Shown one piece after another: positions 568 to 63,225 of a stretch of DNA of 64,000 bases. The DNA is from Actinokineospora diospyrosa. GTDB taxonomy: Bacteria > Actinomycetota > Actinomycetes > Mycobacteriales > Pseudonocardiaceae. Position numbers and translations under genes: made by a program. The stretch is taken from positions 62,001 to 126,000 of the forward strand of contig NZ_JAMTCO010000012.1 of the NCBI RefSeq assembly GCF_024171925.1, written 5' to 3'. The notes below the pieces were generated by a model. That model was not told where the DNA came from and did not search any database. It worked only from the letters and a program-made list of their open reading frames with translations. Position 1 is the stretch's first letter, and the number at the start of each line of letters is the position of its first letter.

Positions 568-696
568 GCGCCCGCGCACGTCGGGGGCGCAGCCCCCACC
601 CTCACCGGGGGGCGTCCCCAGACCCATCTTACCAGGTCAGACCCATGGTTGATCTTGAAAGCGCTCCGCCAAGATCCACATGTGGATAACTTCTGT
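568..696 (-). repeat. structured interspersed module, copy A
   Basis: Read on the minus strand this starts ACAGAAGTTATCCACATGTGG. It has the DnaA-box-like TTATCCACA (complement of 681-689) inside the palindrome ATCCACATGTGGAT (674-687), then an imperfect GATCTT inverted repeat. It ends in the GC hairpin GGGGGCTGCGCCCCC. This copy has diverged in the middle part, where the TAGTAGACTGG core is replaced. Confidence 0.75.
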
Positions 697-931: not shown

Positions 932-1063
932 CCCCCGCGCGCGGGTCCGGGGCGCAGCCCCCACCCTCTCCGGGGGGCGGCCCCAGGGCCAGTCTACTAG
1001 GCCCCACCGACAGTGGATCTTGGGAAACCCGGCTCGAAGATCGACATGTGGATAACTTCTGTC
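932..1063 (-). repeat. structured interspersed module, copy B
   Basis: On the minus strand it reads ACAGAAGTTATCCACATGTCG, then a 9-base inverted repeat (GTGGATCTT at 1014-1022 pairing with AAGATCGAC at 1037-1045, one mismatch). The TAGTAGACTGG core and the hairpin GGGGGCTGCGCCCCC follow. The DnaA-box-like nonamer is the complement of 1047-1055. Except for a few changes it matches copies C and E. Confidence 0.85.
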
Positions 1064-20715: not shown

Positions 20716-20850
20716 TGACAGAAGTTATCCACATGTGGATCTTCGGCGCACTGCTTTCAAGATCCACTGTCAGTGGGGCCTAGTAGACTGGCCCTGGGGC
20801 CGCCCCCCGGAGAGGGTGGGGGCTGCGCCCCCGACCCGCACGCGGGGGCA
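20716..20850 (+). repeat. structured interspersed module, copy C
   Basis: The sequence runs ACAGAAG, then TTATCCACA at 20725-20733 inside the palindrome ATCCACATGTGGAT, then GTGGATCTT pairing with AAGATCCAC across a short loop. The small palindrome CCACTGTCAGTGG, the core TAGTAGACTGG (20781-20791) and the GC hairpin GGGGGCTGCGCCCCC follow. The second inverted repeat shares one arm with each neighbour, so the pairings exclude one another. Confidence 0.9.
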
Positions 20851-20865: not shown

Positions 20866-21441
20866 GTCTTAGGCCACCGCAGCGGTAAGCAGAGGATGCG
20901 CCGCCGCGGCAGTCGGCAGGGACCACGCGCGGGAGCAGCGGATGGGGTGGGGTCTTAGGCCGCCGCAGCGGTAGGCAGAGGTTGTGCCACCAGGGGCGGT
21001 CGACAGGGGGAACTGCGCGCGGGGCACTGGGAGTGGGTCTGGGCCCACCGCAGCGATAGGCGGAGAATGCCCCGCCGCAGCGGTCGACAGAAACCACGCG
21101 CGGGAGCAGCGGTGGAATCTGGGCCACCGGAGCGGTAGGCGGAGGTTGTGCCACCGGGGGCAGTCGGCAGGGGGAACCGCGCGCGGGGGCAGCGGGTTGG
21201 GGGCTGGGCCACCGCAGCGATAGGCGGAGAATGCGCCGCCGGAACGGTCGGCAGGGGAACCATGCGCGGGCGCACCGGGGGTGGGGGCAGGGCCGCCGCA
21301 GCGATAGAGGGGAGGGTGCGCCGCCGCGACGGTCGACAGGGGAACCACGCGCGCGACAGTGGGTTTGGTGGGGCCTCGGGCCACCGGAGCGGTAGGCGGA
21401 CGTTGTGCCGCCAGGGGACCGCGCGGGCGGGGTGGGGCTTT
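20866..21441 (+). repeat. G-rich tandem array, about seven units of 80-88 bases
   Basis: Units begin near 20873, 20959, 21043, 21123, 21208, 21292 and 21380 with the anchor GCCACCGCAGCGGTA and variants. GGCGGAGGTTGTGCC, a GTCGGCAGGG block and GCGCGGGGGCAGCGG follow in each. Spacing varies by amounts that are not multiples of three, so this is not a coding repeat. The plus strand is strongly G-rich. Confidence 0.9.
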
Positions 21442-21775: not shown

Positions 21776-21915
21776 GCGACAAAAGTTATCCACATGTGGA
21801 TCTCCAGCACCCTTTTCCAAGATCCACTGTCGGTGGGGGCCAGTAGACTGGCACCGGGGTCGCCCCCCGGAGAGGGTGGGGGCCGGGCTGGAGTCGGGAC
21901 CGCGCGCGGGGGCAG
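21776..21915 (+). repeat. structured interspersed module, copy D
   Basis: TTATCCACA lies at 21786-21794 in the same ATCCACATGTGGAT palindrome. GTGGATCT and AAGATCCAC arms, the CAGTAGACTGG core and CGCCCCCCGGAGAGGGTGGGGG follow. The terminal hairpin is changed to GGGGGCCGGGCT, so that stem is lost in this copy. Confidence 0.88.
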
Positions 21916-28140: not shown

Positions 28141-28275
28141 CGACAGAAGTTATCCACATGTGGATCTTCGGGGCCCCGCTTCCAAGATCCACTGTCAGTG
28201 GGGCCTAGTAGACTGGCCCTGGGGCCGCCCCCCGGAGAGGGTGGGGGCTGCGCCCCCGACCCGCACGCGGGGGCA
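28141..28275 (+). repeat. structured interspersed module, copy E
   Basis: This copy is nearly identical to copy C. TTATCCACA lies at 28150-28158, GTGGATCTT and AAGATCCAC arms flank a changed loop, and CCACTGTCAGTGG, TAGTAGACTGG and GGGGGCTGCGCCCCC are all kept. The loop sequence differs from copy C while the arms do not, which supports selection on pairing or on protein binding. Confidence 0.9.
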
Positions 28276-43482: not shown

Positions 43483-43673
43483 TGAACGCATTATCGCGTT
43501 TCCCGCCGATGTTGCCGCCAGGCGACGAGGCGTCCACCGGAGCCGAAGGCGGAGGCCCGAATCCCTTGCCCCGCACTCCCAACCCGGGCATGCGCCAAGA
43601 TCAACTGAATCAAAAGCCCCCGATATACAGCCTACCGAGAGAGCCCGACAAAACGACAGCAGCAGCCACAGCC

Positions 43674-43854
43674 TGTGGACAACCGCAGACGTTGTGGACA
43701 AACAAGAAGCTCGCTGCGGCGGCCAATGCAGGCAACCGCTACAACCTGAAGATCAACTAACCAAGAAACCCCCAATGCACAGCCTATCGGCGGGCACCGG
43801 CACAACGGCAGCAGCAAGCATCAGCCTGTGGACAACAACGGGCGTTGTGGACAA
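43674..43854. promoter_or_regulatory. cluster of four DnaA boxes in a 153-base duplication
   Basis: Exact TGTGGACAA (complement of the actinobacterial DnaA box TTGTCCACA) occurs at 43674, 43693, 43827 and 43846. Each pair is 19 bases apart, and the pairs are offset by exactly 153 bases. The flanks are duplicated too, though diverged: GCCCCCGATATACAGCCTA against ACCCCCAATGCACAGCCTA, then CGACAGCAGCAG against CGGCAGCAGCAA. No replication gene is nearby. Confidence 0.85.
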
Positions 43855-63089: not shown

Positions 63090-63225
63090 GGCCGTTATCC
63101 ACAACCTCCCCGGCTATCCACAGCTTTTCGCGAACCCCCGCCGCGCCCCAGGGACCGGGTAGACTGGCACCGGGGACGCCCCCCGTGGTGTGGTGGGGGG
63201 CGGGGCCAGCGGGGAGGGCCTCCGG
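63090..63225 (+). repeat. structured interspersed module, degenerate copy F
   Basis: TTATCCACA (63095-63103) and CTATCCACA (63114-63122) are two boxes 19 bases apart. The core GGTAGACTGGCACCGGGGAC (63157-63176) and a run of CGCCCCCCG follow, and the bases after it are G-rich as in other copies. The palindrome and the long inverted repeat are lost. It is the only copy with two boxes. Confidence 0.65.

Follow-up and report, generated by a model that had tools for sequence, protein, structure and literature searches.

The module at 20716..20850 is probably one copy of a mobile noncoding element of the Pseudonocardiaceae in which a core of some 100 bp combines phased DnaA boxes and a minimal promoter. 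The element would consist of one or two direct boxes, TTRTCCACA, mostly repeated with a 19-bp period, followed after about 39 bp (49-50 bp in the subfamily of this copy) by a putative σA −10 site, TAnnnTGG, and then by a GGGG start, to which class I copies add a GC-rich hairpin. The identity of the motif and its spacing suggest the rest of the mechanism: DnaA would bind the boxes, from about −56, −66 and −75, and would control, most likely activate, a short orphan transcript, while hundreds of boxes together would hold part of the DnaA of the cell.

The element in the window and in its genome

The window, i.e., the whole stretch of 64,000 nucleotides that was analysed, contains the six copies located by an earlier sequence-only reading; all lie where it placed them, and each carries an exact TTATCCACA (681-689 and 1047-1055 on the minus strand; 20725-20733, 21786-21794, 28150-28158 and 63095-63103 on the plus strand), the candidate DnaA box. 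On the plus strand, the copy at 20716..20850 (c3) has its predicted −10, TAGACT, at 20784-20789, a predicted start GGGG at 20796, the GC hairpin at 20803-20822 and an inverted motif pair, GTGGATCTT (20735-20743) and AAGATCCAC (20759-20767); it stands in tandem, 1061 bp apart, with c4 (21776..21890; −10 at 21844-21849, GC hairpin at 21863-21882). The remaining plus-strand copies are c5 (28141..28270; −10 at 28209-28214, GC hairpin at 28228-28247) and c6 (63095..63200; −10 at 63160-63165, GC hairpin at 63179-63200), a two-box form that is common among relatives. On the minus strand are c2 (932..1063; −10 TAGACT at 991-996, GC hairpin at 958-977) and the degenerate c1 (568..696; −10 TAAGAT at 626-631, GC hairpin at 593-612). 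The fixed order of motifs claimed for all six is kept at 20716 and 28141 (letter for letter) and at 21776 (with CAAAAG and GCCAGTAGACTGG), and it breaks down at the others: the first palindrome is broken at 932-1063 (TGTCGAT); at 568-696 both CCAC...GTGG and TAGTAGACTGG have degenerated; and the copy at 63090 lacks the palindrome and AAGATC, having instead a second box, CTATCCACA, at 63114-63122. The interval 20872-21417, between c3 and c4, is occupied by a decayed tandem array with a period of 85 (about 6.5 copies; periods of 164 and 249 are also seen) that a transcript from c3, if there is any, would cross; similar sequence also follows c5.

Two further members of the family, absent from the earlier reading, lie in tandem on the minus strand at 43629-43854, with direct TTGTCCACA pairs, TAGGCTG and TAGGCTGTNTATNGGGGG. 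One unit (43781..43854) has boxes at 43846-43854 and 43827-43835 and a −10, TAGGCT, at 43781-43786, followed by GGGGG without a GC hairpin; the other, about 150 bp on (43629..43701), has boxes at 43693-43701 and 43674-43682 and TAGGCT at 43629-43634. They represent class II, which is defined by TAGGCTGTNTATNGGGGG, usually a TGATCTTG tail and no GC hairpin, often in arrays of 120-150 bp; class I, to which the earlier reading referred, has TAGACTGG and the GC hairpin.

The family extends far beyond these six copies. The sequence-only reading had named absence of the module from the rest of the genome as an outcome that would speak against it, and the opposite was found: the 8.11-Mb genome contains 57 sites that fit TTATCCACATGTGGAT with no more than one mismatch, many more than chance would give, as against 0 for the reversed pattern. 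Exact TTRTCCACA boxes number 757 (35 for the reversed control), and a covariance model built from 36 copies, R1, finds at least 116 places at E ≤ 0.01 with 150 of 6903 first-look candidates scored. The family probably comprises hundreds of elements in this genome, roughly 400-450 when extrapolated from the 757 boxes, if a sample of 866 kb (see below) is typical. Copies are solitary or form same-direction arrays of two or three, spaced mostly by 309-508 bp, also by 840 and 1061 bp. Class II arrays of two or three recur on contigs C5, C7 and C12, the last being that of the window. Class I array spacers at four loci (L012, L007, L014 and L018) end in a common tail, TTGATCACC...GGTCAACGCC or similar, which is also found 5' of the first listed copy at L014 and L018. 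In a relative, two three-unit arrays, inverted relative to each other, lie about 3 kb apart (G006:C1:634172-638121).

Boxes, the predicted −10 site and their spacing

What kind of site follows the boxes? Among 104 model matches, drawn from the window and from 87 loci of relatives, 99-102 have TA in the first two positions and TGG in positions 6-8, most exceptions being gaps, while positions 3-5 vary (GAC, GGC, GAA, CAC, AAC and others); the model was trained on TAGACTGG and is biased that way, but equally so at the varying positions. A near-invariant TA...TGG with three free middle bases is the mark of a σA −10 element. No −35 element was seen by eye at the normal spacing.

The boxes are phased with respect to this site. 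Of the exact boxes in 101 distinct copies (18 genomes), 57 precede the −10 on the same strand by 37-41 bp, 22 by 49-50 bp and 39 by 55-59 bp, with 8 elsewhere and 1 reversed; 93 copies have an exact box within 62 bp, and the spacing classes are about one helical turn apart. The phasing is also seen independently of the model, in 865,911 bases of the same genome (2,000 of them N, window included), which contain 106 exact boxes as against 4 reversed: 72 TANNNTG sites lie no more than 104 bp downstream of a box, 69 of them on the 12 positions named by these spacings (p 4e-61), and the upstream control side has 4 TANNNTG sites in all. If the final G is dropped, TANNNT pairs with 75 boxes in 63 elements, leaving 31 of the 106 boxes without a −10 at the named spacings; GGG is found at the expected start in 58 of the 63. 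The boxes keep a constant helical phase to the predicted −10, as would be expected of a DnaA-regulated promoter.

Would DnaA be the protein that binds? The high-affinity box of Streptomyces coelicolor and Mycobacterium tuberculosis is described as TTGTCCACA (PMC4285127), and the G form of the element 9-mer is identical to it. The earlier suggestion of a protein-binding site is thus borne out insofar as the 9-mer is conserved and helically phased, as would be expected of a DnaA target. The pairing of boxes points the other way: exact pairs have periods of 19 bp (10 pairs), 18 bp (2), 13 bp (2), 31 and 53 bp, so that the gap is mostly 9-10 bp, unlike the 2-3 bp described as preferred by E. coli DnaA (PMC11317965), and this counts against a DnaA-dependent promoter. 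The dnaA-dnaN region of the same genome (L181, the presumed oriC) has one exact TTGTCCACA and several degenerate boxes; the box preference of its own DnaA is therefore putative.

A second motif, AAGATC[ACG]AY, occurs 66 times in the 866 kb, versus 4 times reversed, and is enriched near boxes in either direction: AAGATC lies within 150 bp of 16 of the 106 boxes and GATCTT of 41, whereas 3.9% and 3.4% of random places have them so near. E. coli DnaA is reported to bind the 6-mer AGATCT (PMC4285127); the likeness is a lead only. The GTGGATCTT...AAGATCCAC arrangement is better read as an inverted pair of this second motif than as a hairpin.

Spread, mobility and placement

The element is limited almost entirely to the Pseudonocardiaceae. 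R1 matches are found in 18 of 41 genomes, i.e., the own genome, 13 of 15 others of its genus and 4 of 9 that represent other genera within the family, and in 0 of 16 from other families; within the genus, counts range from 0 to at least 82 per genome. A looser pattern of the architecture, run on 298 genomes of the order, matches 28 of the 54 Pseudonocardiaceae and none of the 244 others, and its reversed version has one match across all 298. In a scan of named sequences, the 80 listed of at least 109 matching stretches fall, save two, in genera that we take to be Pseudonocardiaceae (two confirmed by taxonomy). The exceptions, a Rhodococcus rhodnii contig (L301) and a 'Melainabacteria' bin, perhaps misbinned (L294), have one genuine-looking element each. 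Phages and plasmids gave no match to c3 at E ≤ 0.001, and no published description of such a repeat was found by title and start of abstract, with subscription papers mostly outside reach.

Copies come and go between close relatives. Three orthologous intergenic regions have one copy in G006 and two or three in the own genome (G000), with the spacer mostly changed. Of 20 sites that carry the element in another genome, G015, its relative G011 shares 12 and is without it at 4, a further 4 giving no clear call. One of the absences is a clean empty site, where the gene of G011 runs on without the roughly 100 bp that extend from the first box to GGGGG; at the other three the flanks differ too. Four of the 12 shared elements are altered in G011: the −10 is lost at L340, the 3' half is changed at L339 and L346, and L354 has decayed. 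A target-site duplication is not evident at the clean empty site (one site only), and 20 aligned G015 copies have by eye no terminal inverted repeats, their ends not being inverted copies of each other; this alignment carries little information ahead of the distal box, and its information declines past the GGGGG tail. Where both genomes carry the element, the distal box, not demanded by the search pattern, changes more slowly than the spacers: 95 of 99 box letters are kept versus 442 of 532 spacer letters (p 3.5e-4), counted over 11 of the 12 sites (L354 left out) at a fixed box offset from which some boxes are one base off. Flanks at shared sites keep 1973 of 2171 letters on the left and 1398 of 1771 on the right. 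An unsystematic look at the neighbours recognised no transposase beside the element; at one site common to G006 and G000, a broken transposase-like sequence, IS110-like by eye, adjoins a copy (L119). A DUF222/HNH (13E12) element was considered and dropped, the own genome having no PF02720 match at E ≤ 0.001.

Some copies lie in frame within genes. The insertion with the clean empty site leaves the reading frame of its host gene, for an amidohydrolase, intact (Pfam Amidohydro_1; HutF_N falls below cut-off), and an open frame spans the element at 12 loci, 9 in the direction of the element and 3 opposite. GC-rich DNA readily yields open frames, and L140 and L091 are the same orthologous site under two readings; weight is therefore given to domain evidence alone. 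Pfam scans of 10 proteins place the element within one continuous domain match in 3, in both orientations (an ABC ATPase at L091 and adenylation domains at L082 and L067); in the remainder it lies between domains or at domain edges. The genes with in-frame copies include NRPS and PKS genes.

Convergent gene ends are the preferred sites. The 63 elements of the own-genome sample, 0 of which lie inside genes predicted by a simple purpose-made gene finder, comprise 31 between convergent genes, 23 in tandem in their own direction, 7 in tandem reversed and 2 between divergent genes, as against 43 convergent, 209 tandem and 98 divergent among 350 background intergenic regions (100 bp or longer); convergent sites are enriched (p 3e-10), divergent sites are depleted (p 2e-6) and the two tandem orientations are unequal (23 vs 7, p 0.005). 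The 121 copies from 18 genomes are similarly distributed, with 50 convergent, 32 and 20 tandem, 4 divergent and 12 in genes, a neighbour being missing for 3. This placement fits a directed promoter tolerated where it is least harmful; a terminator would fit too.

In the genus g28, presumably Amycolatopsis, the element lies near dnaA in three of four genomes and less so in the fourth. All 8 loci of G099 are within 606 kb of dnaA in a 9.49-Mb genome (KS p 1e-7), as are all 5 of G092 within 591 kb (p 2e-4) and the 4 listed of 5 pattern matches in G293 within 589 kb (p 9e-4). In G297, with dnaA near 2.376 Mb and 16 pattern matches, 1 of 6 listed loci (1.290, 1.301, 2.221, 3.026, 3.788 and 4.587 Mb) is within 606 kb. 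One g28 copy (L165) lies between cydA and cydB by Pfam; cydA/cydB-like proteins also flank copies at L170 (g27) and L174 (g37), and L171-L173 look alike by neighbour lengths. In G188, a copy beside an Amidase_3 gene (L158), whose product we take to be CwlM-like, is of the same sequence type as a G099 copy 11.7 kb from dnaA. In genus g1 the medians are nearer than expected, with no significant clustering (G006 p 0.21, G007 p 0.12, G015 p 0.22). Element and fork directions agree in 19 of 25 cases in G007 (p 0.015), 20 of 30 in G015 (p 0.10) and 21 of 42 in G006; nothing is built on this. A seeming one-strand run of boxes in G006 was discarded, since the set that shows it omits a known minus-strand box.

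Competing readings, known systems and meaning

The module had been read from its sequence as a possible switch made of mutually exclusive hairpins; such a switch, in RNA or DNA, now appears very improbable. Palindromes do exist in this subfamily, and the whole 135-nt stretch folds better than shuffled sequence (z −2.29), but neither palindrome is upheld by paired changes: among 35 distinct copies, no pair changed on both sides is found in the ATCCAC/GTGGAT palindrome, in CCACTGTCRGTGG or in the GGGGC/GCCCC hairpin, and GTGGATCTT/AAGATCCAC has one (2 cells), the same pair being broken in 8 copies. The whole structure containing GTGGATCTT/AAGATCCAC exceeds 500 shuffles in cells paired, in cells changed on both sides (13 vs a shuffled mean of 5.5) and in covariation score (0.106 vs 0.079; 0 of 500 shuffles as high), with 11 of the 13 cells, each from one of the 35 copies and all of one subtype, coming from a single pair of a CCYRG/CYGGG stem beside TAGACT that divides two subtypes; this speaks for some pairing, though related copies can give the same without structure. 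The exact palindrome is found in loci of 3 of 17 relatives (G005, G006 and G012), while the box, −10 and GC hairpin recur in the rest; everything 5' of the −10 would fall outside the predicted transcript, and the fold of RNA beginning near the predicted start is much like that of shuffled versions (z −0.19 and −0.27). Rfam gives 0 matches at the gathering score in the window and, for two stretches at E ≤ 5, three weak matches (best E 1.5). DnaA-trios, repeats of the TAG type, act as unwinding sites, and the boxes together with TAGTAG in one subtype of this subfamily could suggest a secondary origin; we find this scarcely credible and set it aside on spacing and on the number of TAG units, TAGTAG being confined to the CTAG-TAGACT subtype and the relatives shown having one TA(G/A/C) unit, 37-59 bp from the box.

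Could the element instead be purely selfish, MITE- or REP-like DNA in which the 9-mers, TAnnnTGG and hairpin are signals for a mobilising protein (e.g., iterons and a nick site) rather than for DnaA or RNA polymerase? This is possible, if rather unlikely. Mobility, the wide range of copy numbers within one genus, in-frame copies in genes, and conservation that drops before the distal box and soon past GGGGG are all in its favor; yet TAnnnT with three free central bases suits a −10 better than a nick site, and neither the proximity to dnaA in three g28 genomes nor the match of the G-form 9-mer to the published high-affinity box is in keeping with it. The excess of convergent sites and scarcity of divergent ones (2 vs 98 in the background), with some g28 copies beginning 4-6 bp past a predicted gene end (L164 and L166), would also agree with a terminator or gene-end insulator, in which the GC hairpin and a bound protein form a roadblock between convergent genes. 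We judge this improbable: the copies shown have no U-run after the hairpin, class II lacks the GC hairpin, and the box-to-−10 phasing and in-frame genic copies would be left unexplained.

If the element is a mobile one with DnaA boxes and a minimal promoter, what are its kin? Like MITEs, it is short, multi-copy, noncoding and present or absent between close relatives. Rickettsia palindromic elements (RPEs) are described as short repeats of about 150 bp that sit in frame in protein genes and elsewhere (PMC10969869), and the continuous domain matches in 3 of 10 proteins are comparable; each RPE, however, is said to encode a conserved peptide (PMC10969869), whereas here DNA sites are conserved instead, the letters encoded differ with frame and orientation, copies in genes have both orientations, the own-genome sample has none in predicted genes, and the family core is not palindromic, as the name RPE implies. 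Correia elements and other promoter-bearing MITEs are likewise small mobile repeats, with σ70-like promoters, and Correia elements are described as lying immediately upstream of genes (PMC10969869), unlike our element, which sits at gene ends, shows no terminal inverted repeats and adds phased DnaA boxes. REP elements (GTAG/CGTC tagged) share numerous intergenic copies and a hairpin but are given as palindromes of 20-40 bp (PMC3733652), as against about 100 bp with boxes and a −10. Boxes outside oriC, and near dnaA in three g28 genomes, recall oriC-proximal DnaA-box clusters and datA/DARS. Those are few fixed loci; the boxes of this family run to hundreds, and most of them are coupled to a promoter-like site.

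What would follow for the Pseudonocardiaceae? If DnaA binds, about 750 perfect boxes stand against one in the dnaA-dnaN region, and oriC by itself would not suffice to explain how initiation is controlled; for Kutzneria albida, an oriC without classic boxes is described (PMC4210621). With due doubt, a mobile element may have spread hundreds of DnaA-responsive minimal promoters that act as a genome-wide DnaA sink and read-out, handing replication control in part to a transposable element whose origin-near copies were kept in one genus. The phase rule predicts hundreds of transcription starts, at GGGG 7-8 nt after TAnnnT. The in-frame copies affect the annotation of NRPS, PKS and similar proteins and, if the reading is right, would add to RPEs another example of mobile DNA inserted in frame within genes; the element itself would be mobile DNA carrying a cell-cycle input, which could tie replication control to transcription.
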